Source of the DNA: Neptuniibacter halophilus
GTDB taxonomy: Bacteria > Pseudomonadota > Gammaproteobacteria > Pseudomonadales > Balneatricaceae
Assembly: GCF_030295765.1 (NCBI RefSeq)
Contig: NZ_AP027292.1
Span: 1,178,001 to 1,242,000, forward strand
DNA: 64,000 nucleotides
Direction: 5' to 3'
Positions 29,483 through 48,290 of this stretch are shown here, one piece after another. The position numbers and the translations under genes are program-made. Positions within the stretch are counted from its first letter, which is position 1. Every line of letters starts with the position of its first letter. The notes beneath the pieces were generated by a model. That model saw nothing but the letters and a program-made list of their open reading frames with translations, was not told where the DNA came from and ran no database searches.

Positions 29483-29653
29483 ATGTATTTTCACCGCGTA
29501 CTTCTGCTGCTTATTCCGGCCCTGTATATGGTATTACCGCTGATCATCGATAGCTGGCAAGCCCTGCGTGGCCCCTGGTATCTGCCCTATTTCGCCTGGG
29601 CCATGGTCATACTGATCGCTTTTTTAGTGGAGAAAAGACGCCACGATGTTTAG
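29483..29653 (+). CDS. cbrX: CbrX-like small inner-membrane protein overlapping cbrA
   Basis: A 56-residue protein with two membrane segments (about 5-23 and 35-49) joined by a short loop, ending in the basic tail EKRRHDV. Its last 8 bases overlap the start of the large kinase gene. Size, topology, position and overlap match the small protein described before cbrA in Pseudomonas, whose translation is tied to that of cbrA. No direct function is known. The name rests on context and topology; sequence similarity could not be tested here. Confidence 0.65.
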   Translation: MYFHRVLLLLIPALYMVLPLIIDSWQALRGPWYLPYFAWAMVILIAFLVEKRRHDV

Positions 29654-32570
29654 CCTGCCCTCCCTGATTCTGATTGGTGTGGCCTATCTGCTGTTCCTGT
29701 TCGGAACCGCTTACATGACCGAACGCGGCATGCTGCCCAACAAGCTGGTCCGCCACCCGCTGACACATGTGCTTTCCATCGGCGTATATGCCAGCGTCTG
29801 GACCTTCTACGGCTCTTTCGGCGTTGCTCAGGAATCCGGCTTTAACTACCTGGCTTCGTACTTTGGCGCGGTGCTGACCTTTATCCTCGGACCGGCCCTG
29901 CTGATCCCCATTCTCAGGATCACCCGCACCTATCAGCTCAGCTCTCTGCCGGATCTGCTGGCCTTTCGCTTTCGTAGCGGCATGATAGGCAGCTACACCA
30001 CTCTGCTGATGGTGTTTGCCACCCTGCCGATGCTGTCGATTCAGATTCAGGCGGTCACCGATGCGCTCTATCTGCTGAATGACCAGTTCAGCGCTGACCA
30101 GATCGGTCTTGGTTTCTGTTTCGTCATCGCCCTGTTTTCGATCCTGTTCGGTGCCCGCCACGCCTCCCTGCGTACCAGCCATAACGGCCTGATGGTGGCC
30201 ATGGCCGTAGAGTCCCTGATCAAGCTGATTGCGTTACTGGTGATCGCAGGCTTTGCCCTGTTTTCGGTATTGGGAGGTGTCGAAGGCACCCAGCAGTTCC
30301 TGCTCAGCCACCCTGACGCACTGACTCAACTGGAAAAGCCATTCAACGCCGATGCCTGGCGCACGATGCTGTTGGCATTTTTTACCGCCGCTATCGTCAT
30401 GCCGCATATGTTCCATATGCTGTTCACCGAAAACGCTTCCGATGAAACCCTGTATAAGGCCACCTGGGCCATGCCGCTGTTTCTGTTACTGATGGCGATC
30501 GCAGTACCTCCCATTTTATGGGCCGGTGAGGCACTGGGAGTCGGTGGTGAGGATCAATTCATCGTCCTTAATCTGGGGATTCTGCTGAACTCAACCTGGC
30601 TTGCGGTGCTGGCCTTTATCGGTGGCCTTTCCGCCGCCAGCGGAATCATGATAGTCGCCACCGTGGCCATGGCTTCAATGCTGCAGAACCATATTATTCT
30701 GCCACTGATTCCAAAACCGAAAACACCCCGTTTCTATGCCTGGCTGCTCTGGCTCCGCCGCAGCCTGATTATGACCATGCTGCTGGCCAGCTACCTGTTT
30801 TATCGCCAGATCGGTAATCATCATGATCTGCAGCTCATGGGCATTGTCGCCGTCGTTGCAGCCCTGCAGTTCCTCCCCGGCCTGCTGGTGACCTTGTTCT
30901 GGCCACGTGCCAACCGCTGGGGGCTGTTATTGGGGCTCACCACCGGTACGGGCATCTGGCTCTACCATATGGTGCTGCCACTGTTTGTGAATGAACCGCA
31001 ACTGGCCCCCTTCAACCTGAACGGCAGTAACTGGGATCAGATCGCTATTCTCTCTCTGCTGTTCAACACGCTGCTGCTGACCGTGGTTTCTCTGGTCAGC
31101 GGTCAGTCGGAGGAGGAGAAAAGCGCCGCGCAAGCCTGCCTGATCAACGCGCTGGAAAAACCCCGTGCGAGCAACCTGCGCGCCTCACGACCAAAAGATT
31201 TTGTCGATATGCTCTCCGGGCGCCTCGGTCGTAAAGCGGCCGAACGGGAGGTGCAGAAAGCACTGGAGGACGGCAACCTGCCCCCGGATGCCAGCCGCCC
31301 TGTGGACCTGCTGCGACTGCGAATCCTGCTGGAACAGAACCTCTCCGGCCTGCTTGGACCGGTAGAAGCGGCTGCGCTGCTGGAACCGCTGGACCGGCCA
31401 TCCGACCCTCTGGCTTTCAAAGCCGGAAATGTCCACCTGATCGAAAACCAGTTGGAGAACTATCAGTTACAGCTTACCGGTCTGGCCGCAGAGCTGGATG
31501 AGATGCGCCGCTATCACCGCCTGACTCTGCAGAAACTGCCGGTTGGCGTCTGCACGCTGGATACGGAATATCAGGTTCTGTTCTGGAATACCGAGATGGC
31601 CCGCCTGACCGGTATCAGTGCCGATCAGATCATCGGTTCGAAACTGGATACCAGCAGTAACATCTGGAGCCAGACGCTGAACGAGTTTGCCCATGCACCG
31701 ATGGATCATCAGTTGGGTCAGCAACTGGAGATAGATCATCAGACCCACTGGTTCAGTCTGCACAAATCGATCCTCAAGGAGCGGCGCGATATCGGCATGG
31801 TCATCCTGCTGGAGGACGAAACCGAAACCAAATCCATGCAGGATAAACTGGCACACAGTGAACGTCTGGCTTCGATCGGCCGGTTTGCTGCCGGGGTTGC
31901 CCATGAGATTGGCAACCCGGTGACCGGGATCGCCTGTCTGGCGCAAAACCTGAAGCTTGAAACTGACAACCACTATATCCTTGAAACCGGCGACCAGATT
32001 GTCGACCAGACCAAGCGGATCAGCCGGATTGTGCAGTCACTGGTGCGATTCGCCCACGCGGGTAAAGCCGAGGCTAACCGCGAACATCTGCCGGTTTCCC
32101 TCTCCCATTGTGCAGAAGAAGCGATCCATCTGCTGACGCTGGACAGTCATGGCAAACGCCTTAACTATATCGATCAGATCCCCGGCGATGTACGAGTCAG
32201 TGGCGATCCGCAGCAATTACTGCAGGTGTTCGTCAATCTGCTGCAGAACGCGGGGGATGCCAGTGACGAAGGCGGCCGGATCTGGCTGACCCTGACCCAG
32301 CAGGAAGAAACCCTGCAACTGCAGATTACCGACGAAGGCTGCGGCATCAGCGCAGACAGCAGGGACCGCCTGTTCGAACCCTTTTTCACCACCAAAGATC
32401 CGGGTCAGGGCACAGGACTGGGGCTATCATTGGTCTACAATATTATCGAGGAACATTATGGTAGTATTGAGATTCTGAGCCCGGCCAACAACAAACAGAA
32501 TAAAGGCACTCAAGTGGTGATAACGCTCCCGCGACTGAAATGGACGGAAGATCCTGACAGCCTGGGATAG
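29646..32570 (+). CDS. cbrA: sensor histidine kinase with SLC5 transporter-like N-terminus, CbrA
   Basis: A 974-residue membrane kinase, close to Pseudomonas CbrA in length. The N-terminal half (about 1-490) is a sodium:solute-symporter-like domain with about 13 membrane helices. It is followed by a linker, a PAS domain (about 630-730) and the kinase core: H-box GVAHEIGNPVTGI with His753, N-box QVFVNLLQNAGD, and G-boxes DEGCGI and GTGLGLSL. With CbrB it forms the two-component system that sets the carbon/nitrogen balance and catabolite repression. The signal may be transported or just sensed; the sequence cannot decide. Coupled to cbrX upstream, 18 bp before cbrB. Confidence 0.93.
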   Translation: MFSLPSLILIGVAYLLFLFGTAYMTERGMLPNKLVRHPLTHVLSIGVYASVWTFYGSFGVAQESGFNYLASYFGAVLTFILGPALLIPILRITRTYQLSSLPDLLAFRFRSGMIGSYTTLLMVFATLPMLSIQIQAVTDALYLLNDQFSADQIGLGFCFVIALFSILFGARHASLRTSHNGLMVAMAVESLIKLIALLVIAGFALFSVLGGVEGTQQFLLSHPDALTQLEKPFNADAWRTMLLAFFTAAIVMPHMFHMLFTENASDETLYKATWAMPLFLLLMAIAVPPILWAGEALGVGGEDQFIVLNLGILLNSTWLAVLAFIGGLSAASGIMIVATVAMASMLQNHIILPLIPKPKTPRFYAWLLWLRRSLIMTMLLASYLFYRQIGNHHDLQLMGIVAVVAALQFLPGLLVTLFWPRANRWGLLLGLTTGTGIWLYHMVLPLFVNEPQLAPFNLNGSNWDQIAILSLLFNTLLLTVVSLVSGQSEEEKSAAQACLINALEKPRASNLRASRPKDFVDMLSGRLGRKAAEREVQKALEDGNLPPDASRPVDLLRLRILLEQNLSGLLGPVEAAALLEPLDRPSDPLAFKAGNVHLIENQLENYQLQLTGLAAELDEMRRYHRLTLQKLPVGVCTLDTEYQVLFWNTEMARLTGISADQIIGSKLDTSSNIWSQTLNEFAHAPMDHQLGQQLEIDHQTHWFSLHKSILKERRDIGMVILLEDETETKSMQDKLAHSERLASIGRFAAGVAHEIGNPVTGIACLAQNLKLETDNHYILETGDQIVDQTKRISRIVQSLVRFAHAGKAEANREHLPVSLSHCAEEAIHLLTLDSHGKRLNYIDQIPGDVRVSGDPQQLLQVFVNLLQNAGDASDEGGRIWLTLTQQEETLQLQITDEGCGISADSRDRLFEPFFTTKDPGQGTGLGLSLVYNIIEEHYGSIEILSPANNKQNKGTQVVITLPRLKWTEDPDSLG

Positions 32571-32588: not shown

Positions 32589-33983
<1,395 letters not shown>

Positions 33984-33984
33984 G

Positions 33985-34070
33985 GTAACAACCGGTAACA
34001 AAGGCCGGTAACGTTTCGGGTGTTACCTTAGTACCCAACAAGTAGTACTTAAGCGTAACACTGAGTAACA
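33985..34070 (+). promoter_or_regulatory. array of GTAAC half-sites, likely CbrB upstream activating sequences
   Basis: GTAACA occurs at 33985, 33995, 34055 and 34065, GTAACG at 34008, and the inverted form TGTTAC at 34021. Pairs at 33985/33995 and 34055/34065 are each 10 bp apart, one helical turn. The array ends about 75 bp upstream of a sigma-54 promoter, the normal place for activator sites. TGTTAC/GTAACA is the half-site reported for CbrB in Pseudomonas. Confidence 0.7.
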
Positions 34071-34142
34071 AAACCTACACCTTAGTAGGTATATAAAAAC
34101 AACATAAACCATAACTGCATGTTTTGTAAGGAGTTTTAAAAA

Positions 34143-34160
34143 CTGGCACAACGCATGCAA
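34143..34160 (+). promoter_or_regulatory. sigma-54 promoter
   Basis: CTGGCACAACGCATGCAA: the -24 GG (34145-34146) and -12 GC (34157-34158) are separated by exactly 10 bases, as required, with TGGCAC perfect and ATGCA close to TTGCA. Transcription would start near 34170. Confidence 0.85.
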
Positions 34161-34169
34161 TCTATTAAC

Positions 34170-34380
34170 GCGAAAACAAAAAGAAGCACGCTTCGAAACC
34201 TGGACCGTCAATAAAAATAAAAACTGGGAAAGAGTTGAGAAGTACCCGCCTCGAATAAAAATAACAATGAGGCTTAGAAAGGCTGATCGTAGCGATGCCG
34301 TAACGATCAATAAGCTCTTAGAACAAAAACAACAAACTAAGAAAAGTGTTGTTGCCTGAGATGCGATCAGCTTCCCCCTC
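34170..34380 (+). ncRNA. crcZ: CrcZ-like Hfq/Crc-sequestering small RNA
   Basis: Non-coding region between cbrB and pcnB downstream of the sigma-54 promoter. It holds four A-rich ARN-type (CA) motifs of the kind bound by the distal face of Hfq with Crc: near 34173 (AAAACAAAAAGAA), 34211 (ATAAAAATAAAAAC), 34254 (AATAAAAATAACAAT) and 34322 (AACAAAAACAACAAA). The third lies in the loop of a GCCTC/GAGGC hairpin and the fourth in the loop of a TCTTAG/CTAAGA hairpin. Position, promoter type, activator sites and motif repetition match CrcZ of Pseudomonas. The 3' end is not defined: I see no strong terminator before pcnB, so the transcript may be longer than drawn. Confidence 0.72.
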
Positions 34381-34546
34381 CCTCTCAATCTTTCGCTATA
34401 AGCTTATACTCCCAATCGACACCCCAACAGTGGTATCATTGCGCACCCGAGTGTATCTGGGACGCTGATCTGCCAGTTGGTCACTACTAACTCAGTCGAT
34501 ACGGTCCCCCTAGATCAGGTCATTAAACTGTTGAGTAGGCACTACC

Positions 34547-35956
34547 TTGCTTAAAACCATTAGCAAAGCGCTGAGCAAAGTCTTTGGCGGTAACGAAAGC
34601 ACAGCAGACACGGCAACTACCGCCCACGTCACCGAGATTAACAAACAGGTCATTCCGGAACAGGAACACAATATTCCACGCCGTTACCTGGATGATAACG
34701 CCCTCAAGGTTGCTTACCGGCTGCAGGACGCTGGCTATGAAGGCTACCTGGTAGGCGGCTGCATCCGTGACCTGCTCCTGAAGAAAAAACCCAAAGATTT
34801 TGATGTGGCGACCGATGCCCATCCGGAAGAGGCCGCAGAGCTGTTTCGCCGCTCCCGTCTGATTGGCCGCCGCTTCAAGCTGGTTCACGTCCGTTTCGGG
34901 CGCGACCTGATCGAAGTCGCCACCTTCCGCGCCAACCACGACAGCCAGGCTGAAGACAGTGAAGGCGAAGATGGCAAGCAGTGTGACAGCGGCATGATCC
35001 TGCGCGATAACGTTTACGGCACCATTGAAGATGACGCCCTGCGCCGCGATTTCACTGTAAACGCCCTCTACTACTGCCCGAAAGATCATGCCGTCTACGA
35101 TTTTGCTAACGGCTATTCCGATCTGCAACAGGGTATTCTGCGCATGATCGGCGACCCGGAAGCGCGCTATAAAGAGGACCCGGTACGCATGCTGCGGGCC
35201 GCGCGTTTTGCCGCCAAACTGGATTTTCATATCGAACCTAACTCCGAAGCACCGATCAGGCCACTGGCGCCGATGCTGAAACGGATCGCACCTGCGCGCC
35301 TGTTTGATGAAGCGCTGAAACTGCTTCAGTCCGGCCATGCGATCAACTCCTACCAGCAACTTCAGCGTCTGGAACTGTTCGAGCCCCTGTTCCCACAGGT
35401 TCAGCGCCTGCTTGAATCAGATAACCTGGACGTGCCACTGGAGCCACTGATCGAGAACGCCCTGCGCAATACAGACCGCCGACTGGCTCAGCGCAAGAGC
35501 GTAACACCGGCGTTTCTGTTTGCCGCTATCCTCTGGTACCCAACCCAGATCCGGATGCAGCAACTGATCAAAGAGAATAAAATGCCTCCCCTGCCGGCGC
35601 TGCATGAAGCCGCCAATCAGATACTCGCTGAGCAGGTGCGTTCTACCGCTATTCCACGCCGTTTCTCCACTCCAATCCGCGAGATATGGGAGCTGCAGCT
35701 ACGCCTGCCAAGACGTCAGGGTAACCGCGCGCATCGCCTGATGGAGCACCCTCGTTTCCGTGCCGCCTACGATCTGCTGCTGTTACGTGAAACCAGCGGA
35801 GAAGAGCTGGGAGGTTTGAGCCAGTGGTGGACCGACTTCCAGAACGCCAACGAGAGCAACAAAGAACAGATGCTGCAGGGCACCGGCAAAAGCGAGAAGC
35901 CACGTCGCCCGCGCAGACGCCGTAGCAACCGGACCCGCCAAGAGCCCTCGGTATGA
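34547..35956 (+). CDS. pcnB: poly(A) polymerase I
   Basis: A 469-residue enzyme that adds A tails to RNA 3' ends and so promotes decay. The nucleotidyltransferase core is LVGGCIRDLLLKKKPKDFD with catalytic aspartates in DFDVATD, followed by RRDFTVNALYY and an RNA-binding KEDPVRMLRAARF block; the C-terminus is very basic (RRPRRRRSNRTRQ). TTG at 34547 is the only early start that gives the full family N-terminus; weak non-ATG starts are known for E. coli pcnB. It overlaps folK by 4 bp. Confidence 0.95.
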   Translation: MLKTISKALSKVFGGNESTADTATTAHVTEINKQVIPEQEHNIPRRYLDDNALKVAYRLQDAGYEGYLVGGCIRDLLLKKKPKDFDVATDAHPEEAAELFRRSRLIGRRFKLVHVRFGRDLIEVATFRANHDSQAEDSEGEDGKQCDSGMILRDNVYGTIEDDALRRDFTVNALYYCPKDHAVYDFANGYSDLQQGILRMIGDPEARYKEDPVRMLRAARFAAKLDFHIEPNSEAPIRPLAPMLKRIAPARLFDEALKLLQSGHAINSYQQLQRLELFEPLFPQVQRLLESDNLDVPLEPLIENALRNTDRRLAQRKSVTPAFLFAAILWYPTQIRMQQLIKENKMPPLPALHEAANQILAEQVRSTAIPRRFSTPIREIWELQLRLPRRQGNRAHRLMEHPRFRAAYDLLLLRETSGEELGGLSQWWTDFQNANESNKEQMLQGTGKSEKPRRPRRRRSNRTRQEPSV

Positions 35957-45596: not shown

Positions 45597-47702
45597 TTAG
45601 CTAACGGCATCATCTGCTTCCAGATCTTTCATAGACAGTTTGATACGGCCACGCTGGTCAACGTCCAGCACTTTAACCTTAACCATCTGATCCATCTGGA
45701 TGTAGTCAGTCACTTTCTCAACACGCTTGTTGTCGATCTGTGAGATGTGAACCAGACCGTCTTTACCCGGCAGGATGTTCACAAACGCACCGAAGTCTTC
45801 GATACGTACAACCTTACCTTCGTAAACCTGGCCGATCTCAGCTTCAGCAGTGATCTCCATGATCTTGTCGGTAGCGGCTTTAGCTGCAGCTTTGTTGTCC
45901 GCGTATACGCGAACAGTACCGTCATCTTCGATATCGATGGCTGCACCGGTCTCTTCAGTCAGCGCACGGATAGTCGCGCCGCCTTTACCGATAACGTCAC
46001 GGATCTTCTCAGGGTTGATCTTAAGCTGAGTCAGAGCCGGAGCGTTTTCTGGCAGTTCAGGACGCGCGTAGCCGATAACTTTCGCCATCTCTTTGAGGAT
46101 GTGAGTACGGGCTTCGTATGCCTGCTCCAGCGCGATATCCATGATCTCTTCGGTGATACCGGTGATCTTGATATCCATCTGCAGTGCAGTCACACCACGC
46201 TCAGTACCCGCTACTTTAAAGTCCATATCACCCAGATGATCTTCGTCACCCAGGATATCGGTCAGAACGGCAAACTTGTCACCTTCTTTAACCAGACCCA
46301 TTGCGATACCGGCAACCGGAGCTTTCAGAGGAACACCTGCATCCATCATGGACAGAGATGCACCACAGACAGACGCCATGGAGCTGGAACCGTTGGATTC
46401 AGTAATCTCAGATACGATACGGATGGTGTACGGGAACTCTTCCTGAGTTGGCAGAACCGCAGAAACACCGCGACGTGCCAGACGGCCGTGACCGATCTCA
46501 CGACGACCAGCACCCATCATACGACCACACTCACCTACAGAGTATGGAGGGAAGTTGTAGTGCAGCATGAACGGATCTTTACGCTCGCCTTCCAGCGCGT
46601 CAATGATCTGCTGATCACGTGCAGTACCCAGAGTACAAGTCGCGATGGCCTGAGTTTCACCACGGGTGAACAGTGCAGAACCGTGTGTACCCTGCAGTAC
46701 GTCGATCTGAACATCGATCCCACGAACAGTCTTGTTGTCACGACCATCAATACGTGGTTCGCCGTTAACGATACGGCCACGTACGATCTCTTTCTCCAGA
46801 GAGCTTACGATACCAGAGATATCGCCTGCAGAAGGCTGACCTTCTTCATCACCCGCCAGTGCTTCAACTGCTTTCGCGCGCAGCTCAGACAGGGCATTCT
46901 GGCGCTGCATTTTGTCAGCAACCTGATACGCCGCTGCAATACCTTCGCCTACTTCAGCACGTACTTTGGCAATCAGATCTTCATCCTTCGCAGGAGCAGT
47001 CCATTCCCACTCAGGCTTGCCAGCTTCAGCTTTCAGTTCGTTGATCGCGTTGATCGCAACCTGCATCTCCTGGTGTGCAAACAGTACCGCACCCAGCATT
47101 TCGTCTTCAGACAGTTCCTGTGCTTCGGATTCAACCATCAGTACTGCATCCGTAGTACCGGCAACCACCATGTCCAGCTCAGACGTAGCCAGTTGCTCGT
47201 AAGACGGGTTCAGCAGGTAGCCTGCATCTTCAGTGAAGCCAACACGTGCAGCACCGATCGGACCCTGGAAAGGGATACCGGAGATAGCCAGAGCAGCAGA
47301 AGTACCGAGCATCGCAGCGATATCCGGATCGTTCTTCTTGTCAGCAGATACGACAGTACAAACCACCTGTACTTCGTTCATGTAACCTTTCGGGAACAGT
47401 GGACGAATCGGACGGTCGATCAGACGGGAAGTCAGCGTCTCTTTCTCGGAAGGACGAGCTTCACGCTTGAAGAAGCCACCCGGGATACGGCCAACTGCGT
47501 AGTATTTTTCCTGGTAGTGGACAGACAGCGGGAAGAAACCCTGACCTTCTTTTGCTTCCTTCGCACCGACAACGGTACACAGTACTTCGTTGCCACCCAT
47601 TTTGACCAGAACGGAACCTGTAGCCTGGCGCGCAACGCGGCCAGTCTCGATAGTCACTTCCTGACCACCAAACTGGAATGTTTTTGTTGTTACTTGGAAC
47701 AC
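45597..47702 (-). CDS. pnp: polyribonucleotide nucleotidyltransferase (PNPase)
   Basis: A 701-residue phosphorolytic 3'-5' exoribonuclease of the RNA degradosome. Two RNase PH-like halves (about 1-230 and 310-550) joined by a helical linker, then KH ([20 protein letters not shown]) and S1 ([21 protein letters not shown]) domains. The second core has the conserved [15 protein letters not shown] motif as [14 protein letters not shown] start with AAGGAA 5-6 bases upstream. A long hairpin in its leader suggests RNase III-dependent autocontrol as in E. coli. Confidence 0.97.
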
Positions 47703-47895: not shown

Positions 47896-48165
47896 TTAGC
47901 GACGCAGACCCAGACGCTTGATCAGATCCAGGTAACGATCAGCATCTTTACCTTTCAGGTAGTCCAGCAGCTTACGACGCTGGTTTACCATGCGGATCAG
48001 ACCGCGACGAGAGTGATGGTCGTGCTTGTTTGCTTTGAAGTGAGACTGCAGACCTTCGATGTTAGCAGACAGCAGAGCTACCTGAACTTCCGGGGAACCA
48101 GTATCGCCTTCGCCACGTGCAAACTCAGCAACGATAGCCGCTTTTTTCTCAACAGTTAGAGCCAT
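47896..48165 (-). CDS. rpsO: 30S ribosomal protein S15
   Basis: An 89-residue primary 16S-binding protein. Start at MALTVEKK with AGGAG seven bases before. Signature blocks: [29 protein letters not shown] and LLDYLKGKD. Between truB and pnp as in E. coli. Confidence 0.98.
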
Positions 48166-48290
48166 TGTAAATCTCCTAAAAAATATGCACACAGCTCAAT
48201 CGGAGCTGCCGGATTAATTGAAACGATGCACCGAGCATATTTTCAGTGCAACGCCACAGTTCTGAGTCTCGTATGAGGCTCAAAAATTCT

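Follow-up and report, generated by a model that had tools for sequence, protein, structure and literature searches.

A candidate CrcZ-type Hfq/Crc decoy RNA between cbrB and pcnB in Neptuniibacter halophilus and its relatives

Decoy RNAs of the CsrB/RsmZ type titrate an RNA-binding regulator through repeated protein-binding motifs held in hairpin loops. The CrcZ RNA of Pseudomonas and Azotobacter (Rfam family RF01675) is located between cbrB and pcnB and has a sigma-54 promoter and several A-rich Hfq motifs, in genomes that encode hfq and crc; the A-rich stretches of P. aeruginosa CrcZ, an RNA of 407 nt, bind and titrate Hfq (PMC4063720; this paper and those below are cited from excerpts). Its paralogues CrcY and CrcX are extra genomic copies under CbrB-type hexamers and sigma-54 cores, as described for CrcY (PMC6296734, PMC6292655), the TGTTAC and GTAACA hexamers having been defined as CbrB half-sites in P. 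putida (PMC6296734). Here we analyse the cbrB-pcnB spacer in a stretch of 64,000 nucleotides from Neptuniibacter halophilus (contig NZ_AP027292.1), called the window, to which coordinates refer. We propose that this spacer very probably encodes a CrcZ-type decoy RNA of ~200-235 nt, driven by CbrB and sigma-54, which would titrate Hfq/Crc and lift catabolite repression.

The locus shares with CrcZ its location, the sigma-54 promoter, several A-rich Hfq motifs and the presence of hfq and crc in the genome, and the order gluQ-cbrX-cbrA-cbrB-spacer-pcnB-folK-panB is common to the window and Pseudomonas fildesensis. It differs from CrcZ in its conserved core of ~200 nt, in its four AAN runs, three of them displayed in the loops of a family-specific fold, and in the occurrence of tandem units in some relatives. 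The spacer, where the preliminary description of this DNA had placed the candidate RNA, is confirmed at 33984..34546; it spans the 563 nt that separate the stop of cbrB (33983) from the start of pcnB (34547) and holds no annotated small RNA gene.

Promoter, motifs and partner proteins

The GG and GC of the sigma-54 promoter sit exactly where they had been described, at 34145 and 34157, and TGGCACAACGCATGCA is the sole perfect match to TGGCACRNNNNNTGCW within the window. Upstream of it lie five TGTTAC/GTAACA hexamers that had gone unmentioned (Table 1), against a mean of 0.58 in shuffles, of which 0/2000 reached five; the whole window holds 34. The TGTTAC hexamer (F) at -123 has a counterpart at -124 in P. 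fildesensis. Such a putative combination of sigma-54 promoter and upstream CbrB half-sites is what would be expected of a CrcZ-type decoy RNA.

The 5' end of the RNA probably lies ~12 nt past the GC, at ~34170, and conservation of the RNA region stops at ~34372. Four AAN runs start at 34175, 34210, 34254 and 34322, with 4, 5, 5 and 5 triplets, at most 2 nt from the A-rich ARN-type repeats previously noticed at 34173, 34211, 34254 and 34322. Four of the five (AAN)4-5 runs on the + strand of the window fall in the spacer, the four of the - strand being scattered, and none of 2000 dinucleotide-shuffled versions of the RNA region (213 nt) had four runs (mean 0.34, maximum 3). These runs would supply the several A-rich ARN/CA motifs for Hfq that belong to a CrcZ-type decoy RNA. 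The claim that no credible frame follows the promoter was borne out, no coding signal being found in the RNA region. A coding gene on either strand was rejected, the length of the region differing by 0-11 nt from that in seven congeners and by a non-multiple of three in 4/7; a 121-codon antisense frame was likewise discarded, being without counterpart (the longest open - strand frame in the seven congeners has 43-69 codons). The impression that the sequence outside the motifs is free to vary did not hold. Across eight congeners, invariant positions make up 66% of the part that begins at motif 1 and ends shortly after motif 4, and 77% of the closing part, against 19% and 15% downstream.

The preliminary description had asked whether hfq and crc homologues exist elsewhere in the genome, and both are encoded, with a single Hfq and a single RpoN. 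The best PDB match of Crc is P. aeruginosa Crc (287.1 bits, vs 49.7 bits for E. coli ExoIII), so that it is nearer to Crc, and its gene is flanked by what we take to be rph and pyrE. Hfq (gene at 1483-1722 of stretch L001) is identical to P. aeruginosa Hfq at 67/76 aligned residues, with Phe here and Tyr there at position 25. The Y25D substitution in P. aeruginosa Hfq abolishes CrcZ binding (PMC4063720); Phe, aromatic like Tyr, may serve in its stead. Judged from the sequence, the genome has genes for all of Hfq, Crc, CbrA, CbrB and RpoN, the set that a CrcZ-type decoy RNA would call for.

The comparison with relatives covered 99 genomes of the family, with CbrB found (E <= 1e-100) in 81 and 18 being CbrB-negative; one of the 81 contigs stops at cbrB, which leaves 80 readable spacers. 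A unit is present in 77 of these, and the family holds 89 units in total, picked by a promoter pattern score of at least 10 of 12 together with two or more AAN runs, which makes promoter presence a matter of construction. At least three AAN runs occur in 86/89 units and at least four in 71/89. Both promoter and A-rich motifs, the loss of which in close relatives would have spoken against the RNA, are kept. No unit was found in three spacers (L118, L119 and L135, of genomes G049, G023 and G008); G008 and G023 have copies elsewhere. Among the 89 units, F lies at -130 to -112 in 65, the GTAACA hexamer (R) at -88 to -74 in 69 and both in 59, against 0.8%, 1.0% and 0 in a letter-shuffle control. 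In seven named outgroup units (Pseudomonas, Serpens, two Gilvimarinus, Litchfieldella, Halomonas and one Cellvibrionaceae genome), F is found at -123 to -125 in 7/7 and R at -104 to -80 in 6/7, that of Serpens lying only at -150. An IHF site, scored against the generally known consensus, matches at 8-9 of 9 positions in 67/89 family units vs 15/89 shuffled.

Predicted fold and display of the motifs

A fold that would show motifs 2-4 in hairpin loops (Table 1) is supported by covariation in the family. Of the 89 units, 37 were aligned first and six of the most diverged were excluded, leaving 31 rows. The 25-pair structure has 96.0% of cells paired vs 86.2% when shuffled and 13-42% when slid, a slid control that is biased in the structure's favour, parts of the structure having been picked on the same alignment. 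Cells changed on both sides number 97 vs 28.6 in shuffles, and 0/500 shuffles reach either the paired share or the double changes; further pair types are no higher than in the control (33 vs 31.2, reached by 107/500 shuffles). In the long-range helix P3, both sides have changed in 5/8 pairs. A two-pair helix of the RNAalifold structure (columns 219-220/225-226), broken in 12/62 cells, was dropped.

The stems flanking the motifs were also compared with stems built with the partner flank from another sequence. The motif 2 stem reaches -6.52 vs -3.16 kcal/mol in the control (82 distinct flank pairs) and the motif 4 stem -5.28 vs -2.83 kcal/mol (71 distinct flank pairs), while the nearly invariant motif 3 stem, on which this comparison has little power, gives -7.13 vs -6.18 kcal/mol (74 flank pairs). 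Motif 1 has no stem (-1.22 vs -1.17 kcal/mol, 72 flank pairs). The mean unpaired probability over the family units is 0.80, 0.93, 0.89 and 0.81 for motifs 1-4, and 0.52 for all bases. The window's own sequence folds better than its shuffles (z -2.50); P2 is its only firm stem (pairing probability 0.99), with P3 at 0.62-0.70. In the minimum-energy fold of the window, motif 4 partly pairs with a downstream GUUGUU (34349-34354), a stretch shared by many of the aligned family rows but not by all, and motif 4 may switch between an open and a closed state.

Loop display, compared with shuffled flanks, is clear in the family (76% vs 24%, 265 motifs) and high in two Halomonadaceae loci (89% vs 61%, 9 motifs). 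It is partial in four Pseudomonadaceae loci (46% vs 19%, 13 motifs) and in other families (29% vs 10%, 89 motifs), and absent in three Cellvibrionaceae loci (6% vs 4%, 18 motifs). Repeated loop-displayed binding motifs recall the CsrB/RsmZ RNAs; the difference is that ARN runs here would target Hfq/Crc, in place of CsrA bound through GGA. An RNA model of the family, R1, was based on the 31 rows and spans the transcribed part only, promoter excluded.

Table 1. Coordinates of the candidate RNA, its elements and the neighbouring genes in the window
Feature	Position	Strand	Remarks
Decoy RNA (predicted)	34170..34395	+	R1 match 34166-34395, 192.6 bits; the window is one of R1's 31 rows
Sigma-54 promoter TGGCACAACGCATGCA	34144-34159	+	GG 34145-34146, GC 34157-34158; conserved in eight congeners
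CbrB-type half-sites	34021-34026; 34055-34060; 34065-34070	+	TGTTAC (F, -123); GTAACA (R, -89); GTAACA (R, -79); counted from 34144
Two GTAACA hexamers, possible extra CbrB half-sites	33985-33990; 33995-34000	+	Sequence match
ARN motif 1, AACAAAAAGAAG	34175..34186	+	4 AAN triplets; without own stem
Hairpin P1	34190..34243	+	Outer 34190-34193/34240-34243, inner 34205-34206/34226-34227; motif 2 (34210-34224) inside; covariation
Hairpin P2	34248..34273	+	GCCTC 34248-34252/GAGGC 34269-34273; loop is motif 3 (34254-34268); 100% of cells paired
Long-range helix P3, encloses P4	34282..34371	+	GCTGATCG 34282-34289/CGATCAGC 34364-34371; 100% of cells paired
Hairpin P4	34317..34341	+	CTTAG 34317-34321/CTAAG 34337-34341; loop is motif 4 (34322-34336); 94.8% of cells paired
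cbrX-like small open reading frame (ORF)	29483..29653	+	Overlaps cbrA start; 56 aa; 35% identity over 54 residues to the same-place ORF in Pseudomonas fildesensis (L032)
cbrA, sensor kinase	29646..32570	+	974 aa; HisKA, HATPase_c, PAS; 49% identity to P. fildesensis L032 protein, residues 2-963
cbrB, sigma-54 activator	32589..33983	+	Response_reg and Sigma54_activat domains; 63% identity to P. fildesensis L032 protein
pcnB, downstream neighbour	34547..35956	+	TIGR01942, 534.7 bits

Copies, losses and breadth of the system

R1 matches (E <= 0.01) occur in 87/99 family genomes, the window's genome having one. Outside the cbrB-pcnB locus, CbrB-positive genomes hold 17 copies, and 17/17 have a GG-N10-GC core with at least one F and at least one R upstream, the sigma-54 core of the L187 copy being otherwise poor. 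These resemble CrcY and CrcX as extra copies under CbrB-type elements, and differ in that they belong to other genera of the family than that of the window, whose genome has its one copy. Tandem units are found in 10/77 loci, eight with two and two with three, spaced by 565-893 nt and 61-92% identical. The three tandem units stand between cbrB and pcnB in L121 and L170, and the genome of L121 (G018) has two further copies elsewhere.

A clear R1 match is kept in 7/18 CbrB-negative genomes, namely G055, of the window's genus, and 6/6 genomes of genus g4. In six of the seven, gluQ and pcnB flank the RNA and the interval contains neither a cbrA nor a cbrB match; the seventh stretch (L182) ends with its contig. 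The 180 nt upstream contain CbrB hexamers or a TGGCA-type promoter in 0/7, with a stray GG-N10-GC in L182, and RpoN and Crc are retained in 7/7. Promoter type is coupled to CbrB presence: without CbrB the RNA can persist, and the CbrB/sigma-54 promoter is gone. A scan of two of the seven gave sigma-70-like matches just upstream of the RNA, TTGAAT-17-TATAGT (L177) and TTGCTA-18-TATAGT (L176), which are suggestive by their placement alone, about one such match per region being expected by chance. The other 11/18 CbrB-negative genomes (ten of genus g2 and G009) have no R1 match at pcnB. In 4/10 g2 genomes (L183-L186), R1 matches of 28-36 bits at another locus were excluded from the kept-RNA count; this A-rich element, with what look like hslU and typA nearby in the three stretches with ORFs read, is possibly another Hfq-binding RNA.

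Instead of a free decoy RNA, the element could be argued to be a structured 5' leader of pcnB, either an attenuator or a leader controlled by Hfq. It precedes pcnB in the same orientation, a search for + strand intrinsic terminators between the two gave none, and it still adjoins pcnB where cbrAB has been lost. We consider this reading unlikely, as conservation falls to 15-19% from the closing helix to pcnB, and the copies located elsewhere and the ten loci with tandem units are at odds with a leader.

Beyond the family, CbrB (E <= 1e-140) is found in 177/244 genomes of the order, in 89/113 genera. We took 38 stretches from 33 other families, among the matches listed, and the best-scoring candidate unit of each. 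A promoter score of at least 10 was obtained in 31, pcnB lies within the stretch in 29, at least three AAN runs occur in 23, F and R are both in place in 15, and promoter, at least one placed hexamer and at least three runs coincide in 21; 5/38 have no candidate unit, and 3/38 pass the Rfam CrcZ cut-off. In a CbrB tree of 64 rows with some long branches, the family forms one clade (100/99), apart from Pseudomonadaceae. CbrB relatives and such spacers, present in many families of the order, conflict with the description of CbrAB as unique to Pseudomonadaceae in excerpts of a review and a research paper (PMC8871633, PMC6296734). The listings of a literature search of open-access texts showed no report of CbrAB/CrcZ outside Pseudomonadaceae or of tandem copies.

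Proposed role and weighing of the evidence

The preliminary description had put forward a CrcZ-type Hfq/Crc decoy RNA, and this candidate gains support from its place, promoter, hexamers, motifs, partner genes (hfq, crc and rpoN) and conservation in relatives, to which the covarying family fold and the coupling between promoter and CbrB are added. Its transcription and induction, on which that coupling bears indirectly, and an effect on carbon use are inferred, and so, from the motifs and partners, are its binding and titration of Hfq/Crc. It can be hypothesised that, on poor carbon, CbrA would activate CbrB, which would bind the TGTTAC/GTAACA half-sites and drive sigma-54 RNA polymerase at 34144. 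Of the four (AAN)4-5 runs, the first would sit at the free 5' end and the other three in hairpin loops. Every run would engage, together with Crc, the distal face of an Hfq hexamer, and the decoy would draw Hfq/Crc off the A-rich ribosome-binding sites of catabolic mRNAs, by which catabolite repression would be lifted. At the evolutionary level, we incline, if only slightly, to the view that CbrAB-CrcZ is an ancestral, order-wide carbon-control circuit with an RNA remodelled from one family to the next. In this family the RNA would have become a loop-displaying scaffold, with tandem units raising the decoy dose, and in relatives devoid of cbrAB it would have stayed in front of pcnB, acquired a sigma-70-like promoter and served to buffer Hfq/Crc independently of the carbon signal.

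ARN motifs are also used in Hfq-dependent base-pairing RNAs, and the genus conserves the inter-motif sequence, as would suit a base-pairing small RNA driven by CbrB and sigma-54, with Hfq as its chaperone and A-rich loops that merely load it. Such an RNA seems slightly less probable still than a pcnB leader, since titration better accounts for the fourfold repeat of a distal-face motif, for stems in which pairing outlasts letter changes and for the growth in copy number. A chance A-rich spacer without function, to which an unremarkable sigma-54 match with one mismatch allowed might point, is contradicted by the conservation, and also by the shuffles, hexamer positions and covariation, and its probability is close to nil.

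Several observations weigh against a CrcZ-type decoy RNA. The Rfam CrcZ model gives 9.8 bits in the window vs a gathering score of 95, and 0/99 family genomes pass its cut-off, the P. fildesensis spacer reaching 349.6 bits as a positive control. It had been anticipated that homology searches may miss this RNA, and indeed the Rfam search yields no match above the cut-off. As a route to membership, Rfam was set aside: it offers sub-threshold matches, in 9/99 genomes with one just downstream of cbrB, which are a pointer to kinship and no test of it. Conversely, R1 yields no convincing match in the named loci of Pseudomonas, Serpens, Halomonas, Litchfieldella, Gilvimarinus and Cellvibrionaceae; on nine named or metagenome-assembled loci its best match is 15.7 bits (E 0.15), in L037. 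Because R1 and Rfam CrcZ fail to cross-match, it is place and promoter, and not the RNA itself, that argue for kinship with CrcZ. The element, which as far as sequence can show would act as CrcZ does, would be a diverged CrcZ-type RNA by place, control elements and motifs, and by score it is not a member of RF01675.

To these are added the absence of a detectable + strand intrinsic terminator between the RNA and pcnB, the weak pairing probability in the window of P1 (~0.2) and P4 (0.39), and the pairing of 7/15 motif 4 bases in its minimum-energy fold. One-mismatch sigma-54 matches in the window number 3 vs 6.5 expected and are not enriched, so the sigma-54 site alone is weak evidence, and an IHF site is not claimed for the window because the best match there is only 7 of 9. 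Crc is retained in 9/11 CbrB-negative genomes lacking an R1 match at pcnB, and can therefore be kept without the decoy RNA.

If the proposal of a CrcZ-type decoy is true, Hfq/Crc catabolite control with an RNA antagonist spans many families of a large order, mostly invisible to the current Rfam model, and the control circuit is present in a lineage where it was unexpected. In the family, the dose of decoy (one to three tandem units) would vary independently of the signal (presence or absence of CbrB alongside the RNA), a setting for natural experiments, and the compact folded RNA would be useful for the study of Hfq-Crc assemblies.

Among the neighbouring genes, the first 618 aa of CbrA match PDB 10ed_A, 'histidine kinase', with 574.9 bits; as to an SLC5 transporter-like domain, Pfam gives no family in these 618 aa, here or in the P. 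fildesensis protein. A ribosomal S15 leader (RF00114, 65.1 bits) lies on the - strand at 48109-48216. One of the window's few AAN4 runs falls in the first codons of the - strand ORF at 47702, presumably pnp, and is a possible Hfq/Crc target site.
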